Virus record (IMG/VR): IMGVR_UViG_3300020420_000023
Coordinates: 1-47,858 of that record
Length of the DNA: 47,858 nt
Direction: 5' to 3' (one strand)
Source: a virus
The first letter of the stretch is position 1. Every line of letters starts with the position of its first letter. A program made the translations under genes and the position numbers. Of this stretch, positions 136 to 29,311 are shown one piece after another. The notes under the pieces were generated by a model. It worked only from the letters and a program-made list of their open reading frames with translations. It was not told the DNA's origin and did not search any database.

Positions 136-2535
136 TTACCCTACTAAATGTCCTGAAAAATTACTTTCTTGATGTATTGTATAGGTTCCTTGATCTGAAA
201 AAACAGCTACTCCCACTTGCACATTTGCCGCTAAATGAACAGACCAACTACTAACCATAGAATAATAGTTTGTAGAATAACTTCCAGGTCCATAAATTAC
301 ATGACCCTGACCATAACTTTCTTGAGTGACCGATGGTGAAGTTCCTGTATAAAATGCTAATCTCATGTAGGCATTTGAATCACTTAATGCATCGATTCTA
401 ACTTGTGTACTAAAATGATATATGCCTTCAACTGGCGTTGTATATCTTCCTGTGGTTGTACTGAAATTGCCTGAACCTGCTTGTGCACGGGTGGTAAATA
501 CAACTCCTGTTGTTCCACTTTGTCCAGAAGGGTTAGATGTTGACCTAGCCCAAAAGAAACCATTTGCATCATACTGTCTTGGTTTTTGTACTAATCCAGC
601 TGAAGTAATCCTAATGCCTGGTTTGTCTGCAACATAAGCAGTACTTTGTGTATATAGTTCTAGTTGCCCTGCTTTCCAATTTGTATCTGGTCCATTGCCT
701 GTAGGGCTCCCCATAATCCAAGCATATCCTGTATTAAAAGACCCAGAAGCAGATTTTGATCCCCAGCCTATGAAGGGACCATAAGCATCATCTGTATTGT
801 TTTCGTTATGTAGTATGATACCTGGTTGGCTTCTATCTCCTGTAGTAGATGTATCATTTGCAATTACTAAAGCAGGATTTTTGCCGTCCGCAGTCCCCCA
901 CCCTGTGCCATTGCTTGTTAAGTATCTTCCACTTCTTATGCTGTAAACTTGTCCACCACCAGATATGTCAGTATTTGTAATACTTAGTGTCCCTGTGTCT
1001 GTTGTACTATCCCCATTTACCCCATCTGTAAGTTCTATTTGCATTCCACCAGACTGCATCCTAATGCTTTGATTATCAGCAGAGCCAACCAATAAATTAG
1101 CTGCACCCGATTGAGAATCTAACCCTAAAAATCCATACTCAACATTATTGTCTCCACGAAGAATATAATGTTTATTACCAGTTCCATTTCTAGTTTGTAT
1201 GTTTGCCCCTGATGTGCCTAAGTTGGCAACACTATTTAACTGACCAGCATATGTAGAGTTTCCTATTGAAGTGCCTAATTGAATTTCACCGTCATCAGTT
1301 AATCTCATTTTTTCAGTATTATCTACACCAAATCTTATATTGCCGTCTTCTCTATTCCAAACATATGCTTCTGCTCCAACATTTAATATATCAAAACCAT
1401 CAGTTGTAGCACTACCAGTAGCAGAATTTGTTAATCTTAAATATGAAGCTGCATTTGAACTGTTTATATGAAGTGTAGTAGAACCTGATTGACCTGGAAC
1501 TGGAGTAATACCAATTCCAACACAATTGTTTGTTGAATCTACTATAAGCGTTGATGTATCAACTGTTAAGTTGGCTGACATTTTTACATCACCAACAATA
1601 TCTACGGGAACGGATGGCGAAGCAGTCCCTAACCCAACCCTTGAATTTGTATGATCTACAACAAAAGTAGGTGAATCAAAAGCAACATCATTAGATCCCA
1701 CAGTCAAAGTGCCTGGCATAGTAATATTGCCAGACAACTTGGCACTTGTAACTGTGCTGTCGCTTGGTGTTCCAATATTTACTGGATTTATTACATAAAC
1801 TGTTACACCTCTTCCAGCTATAACTCCTGTAGTTATTGTTAAGGTATTTGACGAAATAGTATATGCATCTTGATCTTGAAAAACACCATCAACGAAAACT
1901 ATTAAATTAGTTTCTGCTGCTGGAGTATCAGACAAAGTAAAGTCTGTTTGAGGATTACCACTTACATCTGCTGCGGTAAAAGTATCTACTGTAAGATTAG
2001 AACTTTGTAAATTAATTAGGTTATCAATAATAACTTCAAGAGCCATGCCGTTTGGTGGTGCGGCATCAAAAGTTAGGTTTGTTCCTGAAAAAGATATGGT
2101 GTCATGGTGTTGTAATACACCATTTAGGAATACCATGGCATTTGCTTCTACGCCTGGATTAGTTCCTATATTATAAGTTGTTGCTCCTCCAGCTGTAGTT
2201 GCATTGAATACAGTCTGGTTTGCAGATTTAGCTGCAATATTTTCTTGGATTGTTTCTAAAACCCCAGCTGTAACCCTTCCCTCGGCTGCATCGCCAGAGC
2301 TAAATGCTCTTGCCGTAGTGCTCTCTTGAGCACGGACAATAGTTAAGGTGTTGCCAGATCTAGCTGTACACTTACATATTTCATTATTACTTCCATCATC
2401 AAAGGTAATTAGAAAAAATTCACCAGCACTTAAGGATGGAAAAACAGATCCATCTGTAACTGTCGCACTCGTTGCAGAGTTTGATAGACTTGATGCAAGT
2501 GTAGTCTTGGCATTGTTCTTAAAAACAATTCCCAC
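136..2535 (-). CDS. Large tail fibre protein with C-terminal C1q-like domain (799 aa)
   Basis: Probable receptor-binding fibre or spike. Residues about 1-110 form a virion-attachment-like head. Residues about 120-255 hold two copies of a module with VFLNGVLQ and VFVDGVFQ followed by a short beta segment, typical of phage fibres. The middle has the Gly/Ser/Thr-rich beta pattern of trimeric fibres, with VDHTNSRVGLGTASP-type motifs. The last ~145 residues, from about 656, look like a C1q/TNF-type jelly roll (alternating beta strands, YTTPVEGIYHFSTQV, terminal GHLVG). The start is a GTG with a strong AGGAGG eight bases upstream. It lies at the end of the tail module. Fibre identity is strong; the C1q-like call is by pattern only. 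Confidence 0.85.
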   Translation of the reverse strand: MGIVFKNNAKTTLASSLSNSATSATVTDGSVFPSLSAGEFFLITFDDGSNNEICKCTARSGNTLTIVRAQESTTARAFSSGDAAEGRVTAGVLETIQENIAAKSANQTVFNATTAGGATTYNIGTNPGVEANAMVFLNGVLQHHDTISFSGTNLTFDAAPPNGMALEVIIDNLINLQSSNLTVDTFTAADVSGNPQTDFTLSDTPAAETNLIVFVDGVFQDQDAYTISSNTLTITTGVIAGRGVTVYVINPVNIGTPSDSTVTSAKLSGNITMPGTLTVGSNDVAFDSPTFVVDHTNSRVGLGTASPSVPVDIVGDVKMSANLTVDTSTLIVDSTNNCVGIGITPVPGQSGSTTLHINSSNAASYLRLTNSATGSATTDGFDILNVGAEAYVWNREDGNIRFGVDNTEKMRLTDDGEIQLGTSIGNSTYAGQLNSVANLGTSGANIQTRNGTGNKHYILRGDNNVEYGFLGLDSQSGAANLLVGSADNQSIRMQSGGMQIELTDGVNGDSTTDTGTLSITNTDISGGGQVYSIRSGRYLTSNGTGWGTADGKNPALVIANDTSTTGDRSQPGIILHNENNTDDAYGPFIGWGSKSASGSFNTGYAWIMGSPTGNGPDTNWKAGQLELYTQSTAYVADKPGIRITSAGLVQKPRQYDANGFFWARSTSNPSGQSGTTGVVFTTRAQAGSGNFSTTTGRYTTPVEGIYHFSTQVRIDALSDSNAYMRLAFYTGTSPSVTQESYGQGHVIYGPGSYSTNYYSMVSSWSVHLAANVQVGVAVFSDQGTYTIHQESNFSGHLVG

Positions 2536-2555
2536 AGTATTAGCCTCCTAAAATA

Positions 2556-2981
2556 TTAGCTGACTGTTACTGTCCAGGTAATTGTCATAGAGTCGGCTGA
2601 ACCTTTATTTACAACTGAAAATACTGTTCTACAAAGCATAGTACCGCCAGAAGAAGCATTAAATAATCCAGCTTCTGTAACAGCACCAGTACCTGTGCCA
2701 GCCGCAAATGTTGCAACATAGGTTACAACTGCACTAGAAACAGATGTGCTTGTAAGAGAAACTCTCCCAAGCTGATTTCCAAGTGCTGTATCTGAGGCGG
2801 CAGCTGCTGTAGATCCACTACCAATAGCCATGTGAGACATAGCTGTTGCAGTTGCATCTTTCATTCTGGAAGCTACATAACCTTTACCTGCTGTAACAAC
2901 AAGGTTATCAACTTCCTGTACGACATCGCCATTGATTGCAATAGCAAGCTTACCTTTTAGTTTTAAATTATCATTTATCAT
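2556..2981 (-). CDS. Tail-associated structural protein (141 aa)
   Basis: A small beta-rich protein between two tail genes. It contains GSGSTAAAASDTALGNQ followed by a strand and then AGTGTGAVTEAGLFNAS and a CRTVFSV segment. That arrangement resembles the N-terminal domain of tail fibre or baseplate proteins of other tailed phages, where a gly-rich loop precedes EAGLF. There is no signal peptide or membrane segment. The ATG start has an AGGAG about ten bases upstream. It most likely decorates or links the distal tail. The exact role is unknown. Confidence 0.65.
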   Translation of the reverse strand: MINDNLKLKGKLAIAINGDVVQEVDNLVVTAGKGYVASRMKDATATAMSHMAIGSGSTAAAASDTALGNQLGRVSLTSTSVSSAVVTYVATFAAGTGTGAVTEAGLFNASSGGTMLCRTVFSVVNKGSADSMTITWTVTVS

Positions 2982-2994
2982 TTTTTATGAGCTC

Positions 2995-5052
2995 CTAATT
3001 TAATACAAATGTATTTAAAGCGGCAGTATTCAAAATTGACCCACCACCAGGTATAAACAGAATACTTACCGATTCGCTTATTGTAGCATTATCTGAAAGA
3101 GATTTGCTAAAAGTAAGCACCGATTGTTCAGACATTATCAGCGAGTCTGATCTATTTGAATTGAACGCAGAAGCAAGGCTCTCTACAATGGATGTAGAAT
3201 CCTGAACCCCATCTGCTGAGTTCAAGTTTGTAGATTCAGTTACACTAATCTGATCTGAAAAAACATTCTGTCCACCTAAAGATAACACTTCTGAGAGAGA
3301 TAAACTATCAGAAGGTGCAAGAGAAATAGAAAAAACTGGTGTTGCATCAGAAGGACCTACAGAATCAGACTTTACAAGTTCTGAACTTAAAGCTGCAGAT
3401 TCTGAAACATTAAAAGAGTCTGATACTCCCGGCTTTCCAACAGCAAACGTTGGGGCATCTGAAACTGAAAATACATTGTTTTTATTAATCCCTGACTCTG
3501 TAGCTAAATCATCTGATGCACTAGCTGTATCATCCATTGCTGCTGCATCTGTAAATGTTCTTATGTAAGAAACAATTCTTGCCAAAGATTCAGACATCGC
3601 TATATCTCCTCCAGTTGAAACTGAAGAATTTATCTCTCCTCCCATGCCACTATGATTTGTACAATAATAGAAAAGTGTTGTAGCTGTGCTATTTGTTACT
3701 TGTATTCTTGTGTATGCACCGCTTGAACCTGCTGTGCCGTTTGTAGTAACTCCAGTTGTGTATTCAGTTCCACTATTGTGAGATCCATTTGCAGTCTCAC
3801 TAAACCTAAAAGGGTGTCCAGAGTTGCTAGATGCAGAGGTGTCAAAGGTGTATGTATTTCCTGATACTAGATGAACTAACGGAGAAACTATTCCATCAAT
3901 ATAGTATTTATTGCCTGATCCATAATTATTTACACCAGAAGCAACAGTAACTGCAAAATTAGTATCAGAAGAGCTTTGAGTTGATGTTGCCGCTCCCATA
4001 CCACTATGGTTTGTACAATAGTAATGAAGACTAGGTGTTGAATCAGATATAGTTATTCTTGTGTATGCACCTGAACTTCCCGGTGTTCCATTAGTTGTTA
4101 CATTTGTTGTATATTCTGAACCGCTACCATGAGTACCATTTGCAGTTGTTGAGAATCTAAGCGGATGTCCAGAGTTACTGCTATCAGATTGATCAAATGT
4201 GTAAGTAAATCCTGAATTTAGAATTAATCCGGGGCTTGAAAGACCATCTATATGATATTTGTTTCCAGAGCCATAACTGTTTGTGGCTGAAGCTACTGTT
4301 ACGGTATAAGTTTTTGTTGTTGGTATTTGTGAACCATCATCAACATTTTTACCTACTAATTTTACATCTGACTCTGATACTGAAAGAGTATCTGTATTTA
4401 CTTTTGCAGTTTCCAAAGAAGGTGTATCAGAAAAAGAAACACTATCACTTTTTGATAAGTCAACCTCAACCTCTATAGGATCAGTAAATGTAACGCTATC
4501 TGTTTTTCCTACATCCACACTTCTGACTGCTTGCTCTGAAACAGATGTGGTATCTGCCTGAATACTACTAAATAATTTTGCAAGATCTTCAGTAACTGTT
4601 GGAGAATCCGATTTACCTAAAGATGTGTCTTTTGATGTAATATCCTCAGACATTGAAGGAGAATCAGTAAATCCTCTTACATACTGAACCACTCTTGAAA
4701 GACTTTCACTAATTGTTGGGGTGTCTGACTTTCCTAAGTTAAATGCTTTTGCTGGGTCTTGATCTCCAACTGAAGTGGAATCTGATTTACCAAGACCAAC
4801 ACTTCTAACATCTGTGTCTGTAAATGTAATTGTCTCTGCGTTTGGAGAGTCAAGAGAAGCCATGAAGTATAGATTTTTAGTATCAGAATCTAAAGTAAGA
4901 ACCGTACTAAGGTCTATAAAATCTAGTCTTGTTTTAAGATTTACAAACTCTAAAAGAGTTGTGGTATCAGATGATGCCTGAAGGGATGCAAACTCCTGTT
5001 TGGTAACTTGAACTTGGAGAGCAGAAAATTCTACCTTTAGTCTTATAGCCAT
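2995..5052 (-). CDS. Repetitive tail protein with two cupredoxin-like domains (685 aa)
   Basis: Structural tail protein built of Ser/Asp-rich repeats (variants of LGKSDSPTVTEDL and SDSVSFSDT) from about residue 65 to 235 and again from about 485 to 670. Two ~105-residue domains, about 247-353 and 366-471, interrupt the repeats and are close copies of each other. Each has SGHP(L/F)RFS, then YYCTNHSGMG, giving His296/Cys346/His349/Met352 and His413/Cys464/His467/Met470. This His...Cys-x2-His-x2-Met arrangement matches the type-1 copper site of plastocyanin/azurin folds. Metal binding is inferred; the repeats and residues are visible. It lies between the BppU-like gene, with which it overlaps by one base, and tail-fibre genes. 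Confidence 0.7.
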   Translation of the reverse strand: MAIRLKVEFSALQVQVTKQEFASLQASSDTTTLLEFVNLKTRLDFIDLSTVLTLDSDTKNLYFMASLDSPNAETITFTDTDVRSVGLGKSDSTSVGDQDPAKAFNLGKSDTPTISESLSRVVQYVRGFTDSPSMSEDITSKDTSLGKSDSPTVTEDLAKLFSSIQADTTSVSEQAVRSVDVGKTDSVTFTDPIEVEVDLSKSDSVSFSDTPSLETAKVNTDTLSVSESDVKLVGKNVDDGSQIPTTKTYTVTVASATNSYGSGNKYHIDGLSSPGLILNSGFTYTFDQSDSSNSGHPLRFSTTANGTHGSGSEYTTNVTTNGTPGSSGAYTRITISDSTPSLHYYCTNHSGMGAATSTQSSSDTNFAVTVASGVNNYGSGNKYYIDGIVSPLVHLVSGNTYTFDTSASSNSGHPFRFSETANGSHNSGTEYTTGVTTNGTAGSSGAYTRIQVTNSTATTLFYYCTNHSGMGGEINSSVSTGGDIAMSESLARIVSYIRTFTDAAAMDDTASASDDLATESGINKNNVFSVSDAPTFAVGKPGVSDSFNVSESAALSSELVKSDSVGPSDATPVFSISLAPSDSLSLSEVLSLGGQNVFSDQISVTESTNLNSADGVQDSTSIVESLASAFNSNRSDSLIMSEQSVLTFSKSLSDNATISESVSILFIPGGGSILNTAALNTFVLN

Positions 5053-13660: not shown

Positions 13661-14134
13661 ATGTCAACAAGAAGTGAAATTGCCGTTGAATATTCCGACG
13701 GATCTATTAAATCGATTTACTGTCATTCTGACGGTTATCTATCTTATAACGGAGTAATACTCAATGAGAATTACGACACACTAAAACTAGCAAACTCAAT
13801 CATTGAACAAGGAGATTGCTCAATTCTAAAACAAACCATTGATGAAAGTCGTTTTTATAACACTTGGAGAAATGAAAACACAAAAGCAAAAACATTCAGA
13901 AATGAATATGCTTTTATGAAACATTTCGCAAATGATATTTTTGCTGAGTATATTTATTTATTCAAGAATGGAAAATGGCTTGTTTCTTCTTTGGAGTTTC
14001 TTGATAACCCAAATGATAATTATACTCATTGCATTGGTTATCATACTAAATTCTTAATTTTAGAAGAGGCTCTTAAAGTTAGGCTTGGGAGAGATATGAA
14101 AGCTTATGACTTCAATCAAGAGGTTCTATCATGA
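13661..14134 (+). CDS. Conserved phage protein of the YCHxDGY type (157 aa)
   Basis: First gene of the early operon. The N-terminus (MSTRSEIAVEYSDGSIKSIY then CHSDGYLSYNGVIL) matches a family of small phage proteins that begin MxTRSxI and carry YCHxDGY. I know no function for them. The remainder is mixed alpha/beta with an aromatic-rich centre (EYAFMKHFANDIFAEYIYLF). It has a textbook AGGAGG before the ATG, and its stop overlaps the next start (ATGA). The position suggests an early host-takeover role; that is inference. Confidence 0.65.
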   Translation: MSTRSEIAVEYSDGSIKSIYCHSDGYLSYNGVILNENYDTLKLANSIIEQGDCSILKQTIDESRFYNTWRNENTKAKTFRNEYAFMKHFANDIFAEYIYLFKNGKWLVSSLEFLDNPNDNYTHCIGYHTKFLILEEALKVRLGRDMKAYDFNQEVLS

Positions 14135-14301
14135 AGAATTGGAGTATATGTATCAAAAGGCAAGGCGACTTCTTGGAGTTGTCTTGCATTCATAAAGGCT
14201 TAAAGGTTAGCAAGGTTTATAACGGCTACACTTTAGGAGAAGCAACAATATTATTTAAAGAATACTTAGAGGAGGGATTCAATGGACTTACCACTAACTA
14301 G
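14131..14301 (+). CDS. Small hypothetical protein (56 aa)
   Basis: Unrecognised 56-residue reading frame coupled to the gene before it by an ATGA overlap. It begins MKNWSICIKRQGDFLELSCI and ends with KEYLEEGFNGLTTN, with no hydrophobic segment long enough to span a membrane. The next gene starts within its last codons, behind a GAGGAGG that lies in its coding sequence. Confidence 0.55.
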   Translation: MKNWSICIKRQGDFLELSCIHKGLKVSKVYNGYTLGEATILFKEYLEEGFNGLTTN

Positions 14302-14458
14302 CGATCAAACAGATGTAGTTCAATATTCTTTACTATTTCTTAAGAAAAACTTTGCCAAGGTTGAGAAAGGCAACAAGCTTTCAGATAGAGATATTAAAGA
14401 TATTGATTCTGTTCTTACTTTTATTAAATCAACTAATGGCTATGAGCCTAAACTTTAG
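14282..14458 (+). CDS. Small hypothetical protein upstream of hammerhead 1 (58 aa)
   Basis: Unrecognised. It begins MDLPLTSDQTDVVQYSLLFL, mainly helical, soluble and charged, and ends YEPKL. It has a strong ribosome binding site (GAGGAGG six bases before the ATG), so the frame is probably real. Its stop codon TAG (14456-14458) is part of stem I of hammerhead ribozyme 1, so ribosomes finishing this gene would melt the ribozyme. Confidence 0.6.
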   Translation: MDLPLTSDQTDVVQYSLLFLKKNFAKVEKGNKLSDRDIKDIDSVLTFIKSTNGYEPKL

Positions 14459-14536
14459 GACTACTGAGGAGCAATGATTTTGCGAAACTTCTTCTTTTCC
14501 CCCAAAAAGGGCATGAGAAGAAGTCTAGTTCATAAA
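14454..14536 (+). ncRNA. Type-I hammerhead ribozyme 1
   Basis: The conserved core is complete: CTGAGGA (14464-14470), stem II GCAA/TTGC with a 5-base loop (14471-14483), GAAA (14484-14487), stem III of 8 Watson-Crick pairs (14488-14495 with 14516-14523) closed by a C-rich/A-rich loop, then T-C (14524-14525) as the UH before the cleavage site. Stem I pairs GGACTA (14458-14463) with TAGTTC (14526-14531). It continues with 4 more pairs (14454-14457 with 14533-14536) around one bulged A. Both II and III are closed, I is open, hence type I. Predicted cut is between 14525 and 14526. The outer stem III and stem I differ in sequence from ribozyme 2 but keep pairing. Confidence 0.92.
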
Positions 14537-14554
14537 ACAATAAGGAGTGAAAAT

Positions 14555-14698
14555 ATGAATAAACTTAAAAATGAATGGAATCTATTTAAACAAGACTTTT
14601 CAAGAATGAGCAACGAAAGTCTTTTATTTAGAATTAATTGGTATGTATTAAAGCCTTTGGCTTTGGTGCTTGTGATTGTTGCTCTAATTATTTTATAA
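14555..14698 (+). CDS. Small single-pass membrane protein (47 aa)
   Basis: The ATG at 14555 is preceded by AATAAGGAGTGAAAAT, a good ribosome binding site. A longer upstream reading would run through the ribozyme and is rejected. The N-terminal half is soluble and charged (KLKNEWNLFKQDFSRMSNES); the C-terminal end (LKPLALVLVIVALIIL) is one predicted transmembrane helix. It is the first gene of the RNA that the two hammerheads would release. Unknown function; small membrane peptides of this kind are often early host-interaction proteins in phages. Confidence 0.65.
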   Translation: MNKLKNEWNLFKQDFSRMSNESLLFRINWYVLKPLALVLVIVALIIL

Positions 14699-14709
14699 GG
14701 AGAATAAAT

Positions 14710-15156
14710 ATGAAAATGAATAAAGAAACTATTCGTATGCTTAGAGAAGAATTAAAGGTAATTTTAGAAGAGCCTTTGAAAAATCATGGTATGAAGTTTG
14801 ATCTCGGAAATGCTTCATATGATGATGATTCTGTTAAGTTTCAATTTGTTGTGGCTTTTGAGAATGCTCTGACAAAAGAGCAGAAAGCACTCCAATATGA
14901 ATTAGAATACAGAAAAACTTCTCATTGCATAAGTCTTGACCCAAACAAGATAGCAAAAATAAATGGCAAAAACTTTACACTTTGGGGCTTTAAACCTAGA
15001 GCAAGGAAAAAGCCTTTTATCATTATGTGTCTTGATACGAATGAAAGACATATATGCTCTGAAGAAGTTGCTGAGAAATTCTTTGGAGAGGTTTTTGGAG
15101 GCTCTAAGACTGTGCAAGAGACAATAATTGTCAATGGAGAGGCTCAGAGAACTTAG
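14710..15156 (+). CDS. Conserved phage protein of unknown function (148 aa)
   Basis: The ATG at 14710 is preceded by AAGGAG. Soluble alpha/beta protein with an N-terminal helix (ETIRMLREELKVILEEPL). It contains VKFQFVVAF, then a basic strand region (LWGFKPRARKKPFIIM) and C-terminal helix (EEVAEKFFGEVFGG). I associate this general pattern with widespread small phage proteins of unknown role but do not recognise a domain. Its TAG stop (15154-15156) is embedded in stem I of hammerhead 2. It is the second gene of the predicted 696-nt released RNA. Confidence 0.65.
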   Translation: MKMNKETIRMLREELKVILEEPLKNHGMKFDLGNASYDDDSVKFQFVVAFENALTKEQKALQYELEYRKTSHCISLDPNKIAKINGKNFTLWGFKPRARKKPFIIMCLDTNERHICSEEVAEKFFGEVFGGSKTVQETIIVNGEAQRT

Positions 15157-15231
15157 TGTTACTGACGAGGGCTTATTGTCCGAAATTCTCTCTTTCCCCC
15201 CAAAAGGGCTAGGAGAGAATCTAACACATAA
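15153..15231 (+). ncRNA. Type-I hammerhead ribozyme 2
   Basis: The core CTGACGA (15162-15168), stem II GGGC/GTCC with loop TTATT (15169-15181), GAAA (15182-15185) and stem III of 7 pairs (15186-15192 with 15213-15219) are all present. The UH T-C is at 15220-15221, giving an AUC cleavage triplet. Stem I is GTGTTA (15156-15161) with TAACAC (15222-15227), six perfect pairs. Three more pairs (15153-15155 with 15229-15231) follow a single bulged A, exactly as in ribozyme 1. Stems I, II and III all differ in sequence from ribozyme 1 with pairing kept, which is covariation within one genome. Predicted cut is between 15221 and 15222. Confidence 0.92.
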
Positions 15232-15243
15232 TAAGGAGTGATT

Positions 15244-15441
15244 ATGAGATTATTTACAGAAGCAGAAATATTTGAGACTGTTTGCCTTGTGATCGGAGAT
15301 GACGGCTTTAGAGCCAAAGAAACGATTCGATTGTTAAATTCAGACAGAAAAGAATATGGAATATTAAGAAATGAAGAGTATGCAAAAGATAGAAAAGATT
15401 TTGCAAAACTTATCAAAGAAATTCATGGAGAAAAATTATGA
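15244..15441 (+). CDS. Small hypothetical protein downstream of hammerhead 2 (65 aa)
   Basis: Starts at the ATG at 15244 behind AAGGAGTGATT. After the predicted cleavage at 15221/15222 its message would have a 22-nt leader. The 65-residue product is charged and helical (MRLFTEAEIFETVCLVIGDD at the start, EEYAKDRKDFAKLIKEIHGE near the end). No domain recognised. Its stop overlaps the next start (ATGA-type). Confidence 0.6.
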   Translation: MRLFTEAEIFETVCLVIGDDGFRAKETIRLLNSDRKEYGILRNEEYAKDRKDFAKLIKEIHGEKL

Positions 15442-15710
15442 ATGGATCTGAAAAAAAAATTTTTCCAAGATCAAAAGATGAACTTTTAAACTCAACTTTT
15501 GCAGAAGAAAAAAGCAATGAAGAAATTTATCAAGAGATAAAAAAAGAACTTCTTAAGGAGTTTGAGGGTTGGTGGGACATGAGTGATGCTAAAGAGGTTG
15601 CTCATGGTTTTATCATCAAGGCTTTGTATCACTATGATATAAATGAGAAAGCAATGCTGAAATTAGAAAGCAGATTAATTGATTTATGTATAGATATGGG
15701 GGTTAAATAA
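15438..15710 (+). CDS. Hypothetical acidic protein (90 aa)
   Basis: Overlaps the preceding gene by four bases and the next by one (TAATG). Acidic and helical, with KSNEEIYQEIKKELLKEFEG, a Trp pair (GWWDMSD) and a C-terminal helix (LKLESRLIDLCIDMGVK). No domain recognised. Translation coupling with both neighbours indicates a real frame. Confidence 0.6.
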   Translation: MNGSEKKIFPRSKDELLNSTFAEEKSNEEIYQEIKKELLKEFEGWWDMSDAKEVAHGFIIKALYHYDINEKAMLKLESRLIDLCIDMGVK

Positions 15711-16048
15711 TGGAACTTAAACATCATGAAATTTGTATTATCAAAGTGCTAATTGATTTGAATGATATGTACTTTCAAGACAAGGATATGAAAAATCCAA
15801 TTAGACAACAGATAAATGACAACTTAGATATTTTTGAGCCTTTTGGTTTTCCAATGAAAGATACCAAGATAACTCAAAAATGTTTTTCAATATTAAAAGA
15901 AAAGATTGATAAACGATTTGAAAAAGAAGATTTTCGTTGTATTCATTGTGGAGAGTCAGACGGCTTATCTTTTGAAGACGAAAGAGGTTTTGACATAACT
16001 GATAACCCATACTGTTTTGAATGCAGTATGTATCAAGACGAGGGATAA
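15710..16048 (+). CDS. Small zinc-ribbon-like protein (112 aa)
   Basis: Helical N-terminal two-thirds, then a candidate metal-binding finger: CIHCGESDG near residue 88 and YCFECSMY near 105, so Cys-x2-Cys ... Cys-x2-Cys. Such ribbons usually bind zinc and serve protein or nucleic-acid contacts. Overlaps the preceding frame by one base. Function unknown. Confidence 0.6.
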   Translation: MELKHHEICIIKVLIDLNDMYFQDKDMKNPIRQQINDNLDIFEPFGFPMKDTKITQKCFSILKEKIDKRFEKEDFRCIHCGESDGLSFEDERGFDITDNPYCFECSMYQDEG

Positions 16049-16050
16049 AG

Positions 16051-16206
16051 ATGAATGAAGTTTTAAAAGCAGTGGAAGAAGCAAGTATATCTGTAGCCTC
16101 TTTATTCGATGCTGTGTTTGGAGAAGAATTACAAAAAGATGTCGAGCATATTGGAAATCAGCTAACAATAATAGAAAACTTTTTTAAGGAGATAAAAGAT
16201 GAATAA
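16051..16206 (+). CDS. Small hypothetical protein (51 aa)
   Basis: I take the ATG at 16051 (after GAGGGATAAAG) as the start. Upstream codons would overlap the zinc-ribbon gene without a good site. Mostly helical and acidic: MNEVLKAVEEASISVASLFD at the start and ENFFKEIKDE at the end. It overlaps the next gene by eight bases. No recognisable domain. Confidence 0.55.
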   Translation: MNEVLKAVEEASISVASLFDAVFGEELQKDVEHIGNQLTIIENFFKEIKDE

Positions 16207-16441
16207 AAAAATAAAATTTACTCAAGAAGACGCTGAATATTTAGCTGATTGGTTTAATTTTGTAAACAGTAAATCTTTTGGAATTCTATCAAAAGAATTT
16301 AGAGAAGAAGTAATTAAGGCAGATATTATAAGAGGAAACTTATCTCAATTAATGTCTGAGAATTCAAAATGGAGATTAAAAAGAAGATACCATAATGGTA
16401 GATATGGAAAAGCAACAATAGTAGAGGTGAACGATAAATGA
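16199..16441 (+). CDS. Hypothetical protein (80 aa)
   Basis: Unrecognised charged helical protein with KFTQEDAEYLADWFNF near the start and a basic C-terminal part (WRLKRRYHNGRYGKA). Preceded by AAGGAG inside the previous gene and coupled to the next by an ATGA overlap. Short basic C-end may contact nucleic acid; that is inference. Confidence 0.55.
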   Translation: MNKKIKFTQEDAEYLADWFNFVNSKSFGILSKEFREEVIKADIIRGNLSQLMSENSKWRLKRRYHNGRYGKATIVEVNDK

Positions 16442-16614
16442 ACATAGCTAAATGTCCCAAGTGTAAAAATGGTTTCATTGAAGAGTGTGAAGATTATAGC
16501 AATGAAACTCACATAGCTGTATGCAACAATTCAGATGAGTGTGGAGCAGAATTTTATATTAATTATGAGAAAGTTTACGATCTCAAAACTATTGTGGAGA
16601 TAAATTATGAATAA
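16438..16614 (+). CDS. Small zinc-ribbon protein (58 aa)
   Basis: Starts in an ATGA overlap with the previous gene. It has two cysteine pairs: CPKCKNG at residues 6-12, and CNNSDECG at about 29-36, which is the four-Cys zinc-ribbon layout. The remainder is a short acidic helix. Such miniature ribbons are common in phage early regions. Function unknown. It overlaps the following gene by eight bases. Confidence 0.65.
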   Translation: MNIAKCPKCKNGFIEECEDYSNETHIAVCNNSDECGAEFYINYEKVYDLKTIVEINYE

Positions 16615-16930
16615 AAAATATGTAAAAATTGGTGAAAGCAATGGAGAAATTGTTTTTGAAGAAGTTGAGGTAACTCAAAAAGAGATTTTAAAACAAAAAA
16701 GGGAAGAAGAACTCAAACAAGAAGAGAGAAGAAAAAAGTATCCCTTGCCATTGTCAAAAGAAATCAGAACAGAAATTTTAAGAAGATGTGAAATACTTCA
16801 ATACTTGGGGGATTGTGCGATCATGTCAGACTTTTATGATTCTACAGATGAACAGCTAGTAGAAGATTATTCTTGGGTGCTTGATGATGAGCATAATGAT
16901 CTAGCTGAACCTTTTAATATTACAATTTAA
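16607..16930 (+). CDS. Hypothetical acidic/basic helical protein (107 aa)
   Basis: The N-terminus is a long charged helix (KEILKQKREEELKQEERRKK), then a Cys-containing region with EIRTEILRRCEILQYLG and a highly acidic C-terminal stretch (DEQLVEDYSWVLDDEHND). No domain recognised. It ends directly against the methyltransferase start (TAAATGG), so the two are probably co-translated. Confidence 0.55.
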   Translation: MNKKYVKIGESNGEIVFEEVEVTQKEILKQKREEELKQEERRKKYPLPLSKEIRTEILRRCEILQYLGDCAIMSDFYDSTDEQLVEDYSWVLDDEHNDLAEPFNITI

Positions 16931-17464
16931 ATGGAACTTCCAAATAAAAAGTATAGCATTATCTACGCAGACCCCCCTTGGCAATACAAAAGAAATGGAA
17001 ATCATTCTGCTGAGTCTGTCTATGATGTTATGAGCATAGATCAAATTAAAAAGCTACCAATACAACAAATATCAGAGGATCAAGCACATTTATATCTTTG
17101 GACTACAAATTCATTTATACAAGAAGGATTAGATGTTTGTAAGGCTTGGGGCTTTGAATATAAAACACTTATTACTTGGTTAAAAACATACAAAGACGGT
17201 ACACCAATTATGGGTATGGGTTACTACTTTAGAGGGTGTACTGAACATATTATTTTTGGTGTAAAGGGTAAAAAGCTATGTGAAAATAAAAAAACAAAAA
17301 ACATAATAATAAATCACACCACCAAACACTCTGAAAAACCAAAAGACTTTAGAGAAACCATTGTGAAATGTAGTGGAGACTTGCCAAGAATTGAACTATT
17401 TGCAAGAGAAAAAGTAGATGGTTGGGATTGTTGGGGTAACGAAATTAATGAGGAGAATAAATAA
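16931..17464 (+). CDS. MT-A70-type DNA adenine-N6 methyltransferase (177 aa)
   Basis: Transfers methyl from SAM to adenine N6, probably in phage DNA for protection against host nucleases. The catalytic motif DPPW is at 14-17 (IIYADPPWQYKR). The family marks LYLWTTNSF (about 54-62) and a GCTEHIIFGVKG segment follow. The conserved C-terminal EKPKDFRETIVKCSG is followed by RIELFARE and GWDCWGNE. The length is typical of phage MT-A70 enzymes, somewhat short. It starts immediately after the stop of the previous gene. No restriction enzyme is adjacent. Confidence 0.92.
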   Translation: MELPNKKYSIIYADPPWQYKRNGNHSAESVYDVMSIDQIKKLPIQQISEDQAHLYLWTTNSFIQEGLDVCKAWGFEYKTLITWLKTYKDGTPIMGMGYYFRGCTEHIIFGVKGKKLCENKKTKNIIINHTTKHSEKPKDFRETIVKCSGDLPRIELFAREKVDGWDCWGNEINEENK

Positions 17465-17716
17465 ATGATTTACATAAAATTTAAAATAAATGATGGAGAA
17501 CATGAATATTTTGATTGGTCTTACTATGAATCATTTACACTTCAAGATTATAAAGAAGGTAAAATTAATGATCAGATTATTATGGAAGAAGTTTGGTGCA
17601 TAGAACAAGACGAAGATGGTATTTTTTGGGATAACGATACAAGAACTATTTCAATACATTCAGTTCAAAATTTAACAAAGAACGAGTTAAAAACACTCGA
17701 TAAATTTTATATATAG
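17465..17716 (+). CDS. Hypothetical acidic protein (83 aa)
   Basis: Lies between two methyltransferase genes and starts right after the MT-A70 stop (TAAATGATT). Acidic and aromatic-rich, with HEYFDWSYYESFTLQDYKEG and VWCIEQDEDGIFWDND; predicted beta-rich. No domain recognised. Nine bases with AGGAGG separate it from the C5 methyltransferase. Confidence 0.55.
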   Translation: MIYIKFKINDGEHEYFDWSYYESFTLQDYKEGKINDQIIMEEVWCIEQDEDGIFWDNDTRTISIHSVQNLTKNELKTLDKFYI

Positions 17717-17724
17717 GAGGTTTT

Positions 17725-19413
17725 ATGAAAGTGTTAGCATTATTTGATGGAATGAGCTGTGGTCAATTGGCTCTTAAAAAGCTTGGAGTTAAGGTAGATA
17801 AATACTATGCAAGTGAAATTGACAAATATGCAATACAAATTACACAAAAAAATTTTCCAAACACCATACAGGTTGGAGATGTTTGTAATTTAGATCCAAA
17901 CGATTTTAAAGATGTGGATCTAATTCTTTGTGGCTCGCCATGTCAAGGATTTAGTTTTGCAGGAAAGCAATTGGCTTTTGATGACCCCCGAAGTGCTTTA
18001 TTTTTTGAATTTATAAGACTTTTGAAAGCGATCAAGCCAAAATATTTCTTATTAGAGAATGTCAGAATGAAAAAAGAATTTTTGGAAGTTATTACTGAAC
18101 AAGTATCAAAGTGCTATCCAGATTTTTCAAATGGAAAAGATATGTTTGGTAGTAGAATCGAGCCTATTTTAATAAACTCTTCTCTTCTTTCCGCCCAATC
18201 GAGGCAGAGGTTTTATTGGACTAATATTCCAAACATAGAGCAACCAAAAGATAAAGGAATCGTTCTTAGAGATATTTTAGAACAAGATGTTGATGACTCA
18301 CACAAACTTAGCGAAGCAAAAAAAGATAGGGTTTTGCATTCAGAAAGAGGTAAAGGATTCTTTTATGAAGAAAGCGATGAAAAAATTGGAACTTTAGTTG
18401 CAGGTTATCACAAGCAACCAACTGATGGTTCTTACATAAAGCAACACAAAGCTGTAAAAAAAACAGAAAGAAACAGAAGACATTTAAGACAACTAGATGA
18501 AAAATCACTTTGTATGACAGCAACTATGTGGAAAGGTGCAGGTAATAACGGTATGACACTTGTTCCACAAAAGCCTATCAAAGTAGGAATGAATGTTGAA
18601 AAAGTAAAAATAAGAGTTCATGAGGTCAATATTAGTGGATTGCAACACTTACTTAGAGAGATGAAAAAGCAATCAAGAAAAACCAATAAACAGATATCAG
18701 ATGAGTTAAATGTTCCCATAACAAAGGTTGAGCATTTTTTTAGGACTGATAAATATTTTGCAATACCATCTGATGATATTTGGTTTGATCTTAAAAAGTG
18801 TTTAGGGATTGAAACAGATGTCTTTGATAGAGAGATTATGGAGTTTGAATATCGTGATGGAGTTTTTGAAAGCACTCAAAGGGTATATAGCGATCAAGGT
18901 AAATCTCCAACTCTTACTGCTTCAAACAAAGAACAAATGATAGAGACTAAACCAAAGCAAGTAGGAATTGCATCTGATGTCAATGGACACGATATTTTAA
19001 AAAGAGTTTATAGTGCAAATGGTAAATCTCCCACACTAAATACCATGGGTGGCGGTAATCGAGAGCCAAAAGTATCCGTGCAATCATACAGAGAAGTCAG
19101 AACAGAAGAGGCAAAAGAGATGAGAAAAATGGTAAGAGAAAAAACAGGAAAAGATTTTACTCCATTTAGAGCCAAGAAATTAGTTCCAAGAGATGACAAT
19201 AAAGTGGGAACTCTTACACCAAATTTAAATAATCAACACAACATAACTGAGGACTATACTTGGAGAAAACTTACACCTTTAGAATGCGAAAGACTGCAAA
19301 CAGTCCCAGATAATTATACTGAAGGAGTGAGCAACACTCAAAGATACAAGATGCTTGGAAATGGTTGGACTGTAGATGTAATAGCACATATTCTTAAAAA
19401 CATGGATCTTTAA
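17725..19413 (+). CDS. C5-cytosine DNA methyltransferase with helix-turn-helix-like insertion (562 aa)
   Basis: Methylates cytosine C5. Motif I FDGMSCGQLAL (7-17), motif IV GSPCQGFS with Cys73, motif VI LENVRM (ENV at 111-113), motif VIII QSRQRFYW (158-165), and near the end motifs IX/X (WRKLTPLECERLQTVPDN then YKMLGNGWTV, 513-550). About 290 residues between VIII and IX exceed the usual target-recognition region. They include a DNA-binding-like helical segment (REMKKQSRKTNKQISDELNV, 311-330) and two repeated RVYS..GKSPTL blocks (386-397, 427-438) typical of phage cytosine methylases. AGGAGG precedes the ATG. Converges with an HNH gene, overlapping it by four bases. Confidence 0.92.
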   Translation: MKVLALFDGMSCGQLALKKLGVKVDKYYASEIDKYAIQITQKNFPNTIQVGDVCNLDPNDFKDVDLILCGSPCQGFSFAGKQLAFDDPRSALFFEFIRLLKAIKPKYFLLENVRMKKEFLEVITEQVSKCYPDFSNGKDMFGSRIEPILINSSLLSAQSRQRFYWTNIPNIEQPKDKGIVLRDILEQDVDDSHKLSEAKKDRVLHSERGKGFFYEESDEKIGTLVAGYHKQPTDGSYIKQHKAVKKTERNRRHLRQLDEKSLCMTATMWKGAGNNGMTLVPQKPIKVGMNVEKVKIRVHEVNISGLQHLLREMKKQSRKTNKQISDELNVPITKVEHFFRTDKYFAIPSDDIWFDLKKCLGIETDVFDREIMEFEYRDGVFESTQRVYSDQGKSPTLTASNKEQMIETKPKQVGIASDVNGHDILKRVYSANGKSPTLNTMGGGNREPKVSVQSYREVRTEEAKEMRKMVREKTGKDFTPFRAKKLVPRDDNKVGTLTPNLNNQHNITEDYTWRKLTPLECERLQTVPDNYTEGVSNTQRYKMLGNGWTVDVIAHILKNMDL

Positions 19414-27171: not shown

Positions 27172-27786
27172 ATGACAGAACACAAAATTAATAAAGCCAT
27201 GTCAAACATTCAACAATACATGGTAGAAAATCCCATTTCAAAATCAAGAAAAAACAAATTCCAAAATTATGACTACAGAGGTATTGAAGATGTGGTTCAA
27301 GCTTTTTCAAAACCACTAGCTGAAAATCATGTGATCTTGCTGCCACAAAACATAGATGTAGATACTACATATCTTGATGATGCCAAGAACTCAACTGTAA
27401 CTAGAATTTCTGGGATCTTAAGATTTTTATGTACAGAAGACGGATCATATCTTGATAGAAGCTATGAGGGTCATTCAAAATCAGCACAGCAAAAATGTTT
27501 AGAGGCTGCTAAGTCATTTGCATTTAGAGATGCTCTTTTAGAAACATTTTGCGTACCTTTTAATCAAGTAGAGCCAGAGACCGAAGCTGATGAAGATGAT
27601 TCTGATGGATCAAACAACTCAACTGAACAAACACTTAAAGAGTTTGAAGAAGAGTTAAATCTTGCTCAGACTAAAGAAGATCGCAAAAATATTTTTAAAA
27701 ACTATGATAGAGAAGCAGAACTTGTTGGAGATGAAGAGGCTAGAGTTCAGCTCAACTTAATATACAGCAAGTTGGTATCCTCATGA
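27172..27786 (+). CDS. ERF-family single-strand annealing recombinase (204 aa)
   Basis: Phage annealase that pairs complementary single strands. ERF marks: YRGIEDVVQAFSKPLAENHV near 40-59, a central TRISGILRFLCTEDG segment, and SKSAQQKCLEAAKSFAFRDALL with helix then FCVPFN. A Glu/Asp-rich linker and a C-terminal helix follow. The length is normal for the family. First gene of the second plus-strand operon, preceded by a promoter and followed by an exonuclease, so an annealase/exonuclease pair of the lambda Red type is proposed. Confidence 0.88.
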   Translation: MTEHKINKAMSNIQQYMVENPISKSRKNKFQNYDYRGIEDVVQAFSKPLAENHVILLPQNIDVDTTYLDDAKNSTVTRISGILRFLCTEDGSYLDRSYEGHSKSAQQKCLEAAKSFAFRDALLETFCVPFNQVEPETEADEDDSDGSNNSTEQTLKEFEEELNLAQTKEDRKNIFKNYDREAELVGDEEARVQLNLIYSKLVSS

Positions 27787-28059: not shown

Positions 28060-28347
28060 ATGAAGGAAAAAATAAACAAATGTTGTGTTTGTGAAAAAGA
28101 CACAGAAGGCGGTTGGCTTGCTAAAGATGGTGAATATTATTGTGATGTTTGTTACGACAATGATTTTTATCCAAGATACTATGGATTTACAAGGTCATCT
28201 TTTTTACGAGGAGAGTCTGGTTACACAATGAAAGATGTAACCGATATGATTATTGAAAAGATACATGAAAAAAATCATGAGTTGTTTAGAAAGCCTAGAC
28301 GAAAAAAACCAAAACTAAGATTAATTAAAGGTGGTAAAGATGACTGA
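28060..28347 (+). CDS. Zinc-ribbon-like small protein (95 aa)
   Basis: N-terminal zinc-binding pattern: CCVCEKD near residue 8, then YYCDVCYDN near 28 (Cys-x2-Cys...Cys-x2-Cys with an intervening Trp/Gly loop), like LIM-type or small ribbon domains. The C-terminus is basic (RKPRRKKPKLRLIKGG). It precedes the exonuclease, with overlapping codons. Role unknown. Confidence 0.6.
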   Translation: MKEKINKCCVCEKDTEGGWLAKDGEYYCDVCYDNDFYPRYYGFTRSSFLRGESGYTMKDVTDMIIEKIHEKNHELFRKPRRKKPKLRLIKGGKDD

Positions 28348-29311
28348 TAATGTAGTACCAATAAAACAAGGGACACAAGCTTGGCATGATCAAAGATCTA
28401 ATAGAATTACTGGAACAAGGATTCCAAAAGCTGCAAACGAATGTATGTGGACAAAAGGAGATCAATGGGAAGCTTTGGGAAGAGATATGTATAGAGAGTC
28501 TCATAGACTTACACAAGACCCTTTTGACCAAAGAGCCATGTATGCAATAACACACGGTAAAGAAAACGAGCCTAGGGCATTAAAAACATTAGAGCAAATG
28601 GGGTATGTTGTAAGACAGCCTGCTTTTGTAGTTCATAAAAAATATGATTGGTTAGGTATGTCTCCAGATGGAGTTTTAAGAAAAGGAAGAAAAGGCAGTA
28701 TCTCTGCTGTAGAAGTTAAATGTCCACAAACCAAACCTTGCTCAAATGTAAAAGAACAGAAAAGAAACTATTGGCATCAAATGCAACTAGGCATGGAGTG
28801 TATGGATATTGATGAAATGCTTTTCTTTCAATGGTATAGCAAAGATGAACATTATCAAGAGTGGGTTGAAAGAGATAAAACATGGGCTGAAAGATATATT
28901 CCAAAAGCAAAAGAATTTATGGATTGGTATGCAGAAAAGTCTAAAGATCCAACATTTATATCTAGGTGGTCTGAAGACAAAGCAGAGCCCGGAATAAACT
29001 ATAAAAGTGTGGACGAAGATAATTTAACAGCAGAATTGTCAGCCATTCTTACAGAACAAAAGGAGCACAAAGATAGTCTTACTTCTCTTGATAAAAGAAG
29101 AAAAGAACTGTCTGCAATGCTTGTAAAAAAGTATGGCGGTGCCTTTTGTACCCCATCGGTAAAATGTCATATGACACAAGCCAGGGGTAGGATTGATTAT
29201 ACCCGTCTAGTAAAAGATCAAAACATTCAAAGAGATGTGCTTGAGGGCTACAGATCAGAGGGTGATACAAGAATCTATACTAGACTTGTGGAGAATAAAA
29301 ATGATACTTAA
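28340..29311 (+). CDS. YqaJ-type phage exonuclease (323 aa)
   Basis: Predicted 5'-3' dsDNA exonuclease that makes single strands for the annealase. It has TQAWHDQRSNRITGTRI at the start (the W-x-x-R-x-x-x-x-T-(G/A)-(S/T) pattern of YqaJ), HGKENEPRA with Glu77, WLGMSPDGVL with Asp110, and AVEVKCP with Glu125 and Lys127, the PD-(D/E)XK catalytic set. A conserved KRNYWHQMQLGMEC helix follows. I take the ATG at 28340 behind AAAGGTGG over the GTG at 28331. Ends overlapping the RHH-like gene. Confidence 0.9.
   Translation: MTDNVVPIKQGTQAWHDQRSNRITGTRIPKAANECMWTKGDQWEALGRDMYRESHRLTQDPFDQRAMYAITHGKENEPRALKTLEQMGYVVRQPAFVVHKKYDWLGMSPDGVLRKGRKGSISAVEVKCPQTKPCSNVKEQKRNYWHQMQLGMECMDIDEMLFFQWYSKDEHYQEWVERDKTWAERYIPKAKEFMDWYAEKSKDPTFISRWSEDKAEPGINYKSVDEDNLTAELSAILTEQKEHKDSLTSLDKRRKELSAMLVKKYGGAFCTPSVKCHMTQARGRIDYTRLVKDQNIQRDVLEGYRSEGDTRIYTRLVENKNDT

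Follow-up and report, generated by a model that had tools for sequence, protein, structure and literature searches.

The window is an entire IMG/VR virus record of 47,858 bases. The phage encodes terminase subunits, an internal virion protein, a DnaB helicase, Erf-like and RecE-like recombination proteins, and an integrase, and judged from its sequence it looks like a temperate podovirus-like phage. In a search for its host, we found no cultured phage terminase with more than 60% identity and no terminase match among 84,980 GTDB genomes. The operon studied here contains a phrog_1987 protein, then small genes, and two methylases at its end, and it holds two hammerhead ribozymes (HHRs), which we call HH1 and HH2 (Table 1). 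The genes between ribozymes are mostly small and are shuffled among related phages. In four relatives (L022, L023, L031, and L105), a gene for the anti-restriction protein ArdC is flanked by HHRs (Pfam ArdcN 1.9e-15, zincin domain, phrog_7245). ArdC in the relatives, together with the methylases, suggests that this accessory operon is probably an anti-defence operon.

Table 1. Features of the ribozyme-containing operon and related genes in the 47,858-base window
Feature	Position	Strand	Basis or remark
Operon segmented by ribozymes	13661-19413	+	Diverges from terminase genes
58-aa ORF upstream of HH1	14282-14458	+	Stop TAG 14456-14458, last base within HH1 stem I
HH1, type I hammerhead ribozyme	14458-14531	+	Core match, covariance model
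HH1 stem I	14458-14463/14526-14531	+	
HH1 core CUGAGGA	14464-14470	+	
HH1 stem II	14471-14474/14480-14483	+	Loop UGAUU
HH1 GAAA	14484-14487	+	
HH1 stem III	14488-14523	+	Followed by U 14524 and C17 14525
HH1 predicted cut	14525/14526	+	
Predicted released RNA, 696 nt	14526-15221	+	Sequence arithmetic from cut sites
29-nt leader after cut 1	14526-14554	+	Ribosome-binding site AAGGAG 14542-14547
47-aa small predicted membrane protein	14555-14698	+	Close homologue in L007
148-aa protein	14710-15156	+	Stop TAG 15154-15156, last base within HH2 stem I
HH2, type I hammerhead ribozyme	15156-15227	+	Core match, covariance model, fold
HH2 stem I	15156-15161/15222-15227	+	
HH2 core CUGACGA	15162-15168	+	
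HH2 stem II	15169-15172/15178-15181	+	Loop UUAUU
HH2 GAAA	15182-15185	+	
HH2 stem III	15186-15219	+	Followed by U 15220 and C17 15221
HH2 predicted cut	15221/15222	+	
22-nt leader after cut 2	15222-15243	+	Ribosome-binding site AAGGAG 15233-15238
65-aa ORF, first gene of third RNA segment	15244-15441	+	
MT-A70 adenine methylase	16931-17464	+	In operon 13661-19413
C5 cytosine methylase	17725-19413	+	Operon end
Erf-like and RecE-like proteins	27172-27786 and 28340-29311		

The original prediction placed two tandem HHRs at this site, and a strict sequence search confirmed both as canonical type I ribozymes with exact cores. HH1 reads GGACUA-CUGAGGA-GCAA(UGAUU)UUGC-GAAA-stem III-UC^UAGUUC, and HH2 reads GUGUUA-CUGACGA-GGGC(UUAUU)GUCC-GAAA-stem III-UC^UAACAC, where the caret marks the predicted cut. 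Each has three helices with an open-ended stem I and the core CUGANGA...GAAA...UH at the three-way junction, which places both in type I. In the window (14488-14523 and 15186-15219) and in many relatives, stem III of some ribozymes is long and pyrimidine-rich, with a C run (UUUCCCCC) and an internal loop. This long form is often present in one ribozyme per genome, and the others have short tetraloop hairpins.

HH1 and HH2 were the sole strict-core matches on either strand of the window. Dinucleotide-preserving shuffles of the window (n = 300) produced 22 loose matches (0.07 per shuffle) and none of the quality of HH1 or HH2. With a family covariance model built from 53 HHRs, HH1 scored 73.2 bits (E 7.6e-16) and HH2 scored 71.5 bits, compared with 15.2 bits (E 0.19) for the next match in the window; the two high scores are favoured because both sites belong to the training set. 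Covariation is independent evidence for HH1 and HH2 beyond these scores. Across the 53 sequences, 15 of the 16 base pairs changed on both sides. In the same alignment, 99% of the cells were paired, compared with a mean of 67% in shuffled controls and 31 to 44% in slid versions; the set was gathered by requiring some pairing, a choice that raises the paired percentage but could not have produced so varied a set of compensating pairs. The compensation can be seen by eye in stem II of HH1, which is GCAA/UUGC in the window and GGAU/AUCC in L165.

The lowest-energy fold of HH2 is the active fold (z −3.87). In the unconstrained, minimal fold of HH1, a hairpin formed on the stem I side competes with the active fold and is better by 3 kcal/mol. 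Therefore, HH1 may be slower or controlled. This competing fold, and the failure of the Rfam model to detect either site, would fit the view that HH1 and HH2 are chance look-alikes or decayed, inactive ribozymes. However, no comparable match arose in the 300 shuffles, the core is intact, the stems covary, and the ribozymes are conserved throughout the lineage (see below), so we consider that view extremely improbable. The Rfam result has a bearing on annotation more generally. The type I model RF00163 (Hammerhead_1) has a core and topology identical to those of the window HHRs, but a scan of the window with the gathering and E-value thresholds returned no hammerhead match. On related records, its best score was 27.1 bits against a cut-off of 34, and two records had E-values of 4.4e-6 and 7.6e-4. 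RF00163 is a 45-position model, and hammerhead membership here rests on the core and the folds. HHRs of this abundant phage subfamily fall short of the RF00163 cut-off, and routine annotation with this model therefore misses them.

The original prediction further had the two cuts release a 696-nt RNA carrying two complete genes, and the coordinates bear this out. The predicted RNA has a 29-nt leader, the two genes, and the body of HH2 at its 3' end. Two-cut release of this two-gene RNA is a well-supported prediction. Hammerhead cleavage leaves a 5'-OH and a 2',3'-cyclic phosphate, and from this established chemistry the fragment is predicted to have these ends.

The homologue of the 47-aa protein in L007 is encoded directly behind an HHR. 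An open frame of 74 aa begins at an AUG within HH1 loop II and continues through the ribozyme, in frame with the 47-aa gene (14474-14698). We rejected this frame as a product of uncut RNA. The L007 homologue begins at the 47-aa start, which supports the ATG at 14555 over the longer frame. Homologues of the 148-aa protein were found only in L165 (47% identity) and L128, both reached through ribozyme-based loci; peptide patterns found none in viral contigs, and there were none in cultured phages. Pfam and PHROGs returned nothing significant for the cassette proteins of the window, and the AlphaFold model of the 148-aa protein (pTM 0.38) was too weak for a structure search.

A search of IMG/VR with the large terminase yielded 60 related loci, 59 of them at 75 to 88% identity and one at 36%. 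In 33 of these relatives, the record extends 2.5 kb or more beyond the terminase start on the upstream side, and every one of the 33 carries one to five HHRs in the same operon. These HHRs are in the same place and the same direction, 1.4 to 6 kb from the terminase. Among the 18 relatives with at least 6 kb covered, 7 have one HHR, 4 have two, 6 have three, and 1 has four; that is, 11 of the 18 carry several. L031 has five HHRs within about 3 kb. In a whole-record search of 13 related phages, we found no such ribozymes beyond the operon cluster.

If the arrangement in the window were a fixed unit, the order ribozyme-gene-gene-ribozyme should recur in related phages, a comparison that the original prediction proposed. 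The order is not kept in the relatives that we compared. L165 has the same two ribozymes (GGACTA and GTGTTA), and they flank the 148-aa homologue alone. In L128, the 148-aa homologue follows another gene after one ribozyme, and in L007 the 47-aa gene is found behind a single ribozyme without the 148-aa gene. Therefore, the two-gene unit of the window is one of many permutations.

We also gathered a wider set, using a more general pattern in phage contigs and one in GTDB genomes. It holds at least 257 distinct type I HHRs and at least 62 distinct multi-HHR loci. All HHRs of a multi-HHR locus were on one strand in 73 of 73 loci among the matches listed. The richest array among the matches listed is L191 (Aliivibrio MAG contig JAAGZR010000219.1, 5.8 kb), with nine type I HHRs in 4 kb at about 540-4570. 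Its nine 3' arms are all TTAATC, and stems II and III differ.

The junction between ribozyme and gene has a regular anatomy. Among the matches listed, 245 of 257 type I HHRs have a stem I of exactly 6 bp, and an A is found directly 5' of stem I in 251 of the 257. Loop II has five bases in 247 of 257 type I HHRs among the matches listed and is mostly UNANN, a composition that must be read with the two search patterns in mind, one of which required the loop U and A while the other did not. A tertiary contact between stem I and loop II is linked to fast hammerhead cleavage. The 6-bp stem I, the A that precedes it, and the five-base loop II have the geometry that would be expected for this contact.

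The distance from the cut to the next start has a median of 30 nt in the type I set, among the matches listed, and is 29 and 22 nt in the window. Of 165 cases among the matches listed, 141 have the stop codon of the upstream gene within −10 to +25 of the first base of the ribozyme, and 100 have it inside the ribozyme. Stops inside the ribozyme occur at the first base of stem I, within stem I, at the UGA of the CUGANGA core, and in loop II. Genes in different frames end on the ribozyme, and some protein tails, such as -STSDES, are encoded by it. In the window, both upstream TAG stops have their G in common with stem I. Because the stop abuts or overlaps the ribozyme, a terminating ribosome should cover the 5' half of the ribozyme. 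In L031, L023, L022, and L105, a small variable hairpin (for example, GGGAAATAATTCCC) directly follows stem I of many ribozymes, at the 5' end of the RNA that would be released; this hairpin may protect the leader.

Type III HHRs adjoin type I HHRs in at least 11 distinct cases, in the same kind of gap. We observed type III beside type I in the same operon in L027, L034, L170, L200, L218, L241, L264, L268, L298, L314, and L332. A type III cut leaves the ribozyme on the opposite product from a type I cut. Since the two types occur in the same gaps, the factor common to them is the cut between genes.

We suggest that HH1 and HH2 are likely to act as self-cleaving elements between cistrons, dividing the transcript of this accessory operon, whose role is probably anti-defence, into separate mRNAs. 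The placement of the ribozymes, their one-strand arrays, and the interchange of types I and III support cutting between genes as the selected function. In this scenario, each ribozyme would fold in the interval that separates a stop codon from the ribosome-binding site of the following gene, cutting 22 to 29 nt before the next start. The upstream mRNA would then carry the ribozyme hairpins and a 2',3'-cyclic phosphate at its 3' end, and the downstream mRNA would gain a short leader with a 5'-OH. Neither the usual 3' exonucleases nor 5'-phosphate-dependent decay would be expected to act readily on such ends. Each segment could therefore have its own lifetime and its own translation. With the upstream stop bordering or overlapping the ribozyme, a ribosome that terminates there would sit on both stem I and the CUGANGA strand; we further infer that this should delay the cut.

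A different fate for the fragments was part of the original prediction, in which the released RNA could become a circle by reverse hammerhead ligation. Such ligation presupposes that the 5' arm of the ribozyme at the 3' end of the fragment pairs with the fragment's own 5' end. In the window, the 5' end of the fragment (UAGUUC) and the 5' arm of HH2 (GUGUUA) are mismatched. They form four contiguous pairs, two of which are G-U, at +2.6 kcal/mol compared with −4.1 kcal/mol for the native stem. L165 has the homologous ribozyme pair, with the same stem I incompatibility. The more general proposal is that the hammerhead or RtcB seals released fragments to give circular or rejoined mRNAs, as in retrozymes. 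Several features of the wider set favour it. Among the matches listed, 67 of 107 consecutive ribozyme pairs are cross-compatible, compared with 9 to 18% between genomes. Within genomes, stem I is shared to a far greater extent than the other two stems, with a coupling of 0.60 compared with 0.23 for stem II and 0.32 for stem III among the matches listed; the bootstrap 95% intervals of the differences, for these same matches, are 0.22-0.48 (stem I-II) and 0.13-0.45 (stem I-III). The corresponding values in the terminase clade are 0.64, 0.25, and −0.06, and the identical 3' arm of the nine HHRs in L191 points the same way. However, the window and L165 pairs are incompatible, the ArdC fragments in L022, L023, L031, and L105 have a broken closing pair, and mixed type I/III neighbours cannot rejoin by stem I pairing. 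Moreover, relatives with a single ribozyme, an observation that the original prediction itself had named as counting against it, make up 7 of the 18 well-covered relatives. RtcB was found neither in the window nor in 15 related records (16 records in all), compared with 9 positives among 14 control genomes, although the host could supply RtcB; the search for T4 RNA ligase gave no positive control. Circles and spliced products were also sought in a 2011 study, and none were detected (PMC3088659). The single-HHR relatives, the type I/III neighbours, the mismatch in the window and L165, and the negative RtcB search argue against circles as the overall reason why the ribozymes are arranged in this way. 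We therefore regard ligation of the released fragments as very unlikely.

Stem IIIs from one genome of the terminase clade resemble each other no more than those from different genomes do (−0.06), and stem I is common within genomes. The ribozymes of one genome are therefore not simply recent copies of each other. The sharing of stem I within a genome could come from resealing, from a functional shared leader, or from selection for recombinable gene borders. We rejected the possibility that the open stem is common within a genome whatever the type of ribozyme, because the type III arrays L322 and L298 lack such sharing. As to resealing, in phages with interchangeable stem I arms the ribozymes themselves might rejoin cut mRNAs and give circular or reordered messages, which we think unlikely; the window would then be a member that lost or never had matching arms. 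If true, resealing would amount to protein-free cutting and rejoining of phage mRNA. As to gene borders, the ribozymes might serve mainly as linkers at the DNA level, that is, as short shared sequences that allow genes to be swapped or added, with self-cutting being secondary. Shared stem I arms would then be needed because hybrid ribozymes must still fold. The gene sets between ribozymes are indeed shuffled among relatives, all four possible pairings of two stem II types with two stem III types occur, and the phage encodes Erf and RecE homologues. In addition, L047 has a fused ribozyme (L047:7159-7239) with two tandem stem III hairpins joined at GAGCGAAAC, which looks like a recombination scar inside a ribozyme. 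However, the compensatory changes, which occur in each of the three stems, show that the folded RNA is under selection, type III HHRs are found in the same gaps without having stem I in common with type I, and the two ribozymes of the window differ in their stem I arms. A mainly DNA-level role is thus an unlikely account.

Later papers treat what hammerheads do in phages and bacteria as an open question (PMC6155905, PMC10085705). For this question, the lineage offers a conserved test case, with a ribozyme-punctuated operon in every well-covered relative. The regularities that we describe (a stop inside the ribozyme, a leader of roughly 30 nt, interchange of types I and III, and a shared stem I) predict translation-coupled cutting, segmentation, and possibly resealing. 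In an open-access literature search, we found no earlier report of the stop codon overlap or of stem I sharing within genomes.

The gene arrangement in the window had been put forward as an unusual gene-expression system, but clustered HHRs that flank prophage genes were published in 2011. Perreault et al. 2011 (PMC3088659) described multiple hammerheads that flank genes or short gene blocks in prophages, with examples in Agrobacterium tumefaciens (a triple array around ardA), Clostridium scindens, and Azorhizobium caulinodans. They proposed processing to operon- or gene-length mRNAs, and they mentioned spliced or circular products, which were not detected. Three arrays were cleaved in vitro, and one was cleaved in vivo when transcribed in E. 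coli; the authors stated that the purpose of the arrays was unknown (PMC3088659). The window has an array of this kind, with at least two HHRs close together on the same strand and flanking complete phage genes. In both the 2011 arrays and the present lineage, several HHRs in a phage operon flank single genes or small variable blocks, and anti-restriction genes are found beside the ribozymes (ardA in the 2011 arrays and ardC in the relatives of the window). Judged by the published description of the 2011 arrays, the present case differs in being one uncultured lineage with HHRs in 33 of 33 relatives. By the same description, its further distinguishing traits are a single type I subfamily (6-bp stem I and five-base UNANN loop II), stops inside the ribozyme, stem I in common within genomes, and arrays of up to nine HHRs. 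The hammerhead HHphage of Halovirus HF1/HF2 (PMC3088659) is also located shortly upstream of a phage gene start, as in the window, but it is single, has a core with insertions, and belongs to an archaeal virus. Retrozymes and viroid-like satellite RNAs, like the predicted RNA of the window, are bounded by two self-cleaving hammerheads. In contrast to retrozymes, the predicted RNA of the window is a coding mRNA of a DNA phage, has no repeated unit, and has ends that are unmatched for self-ligation.
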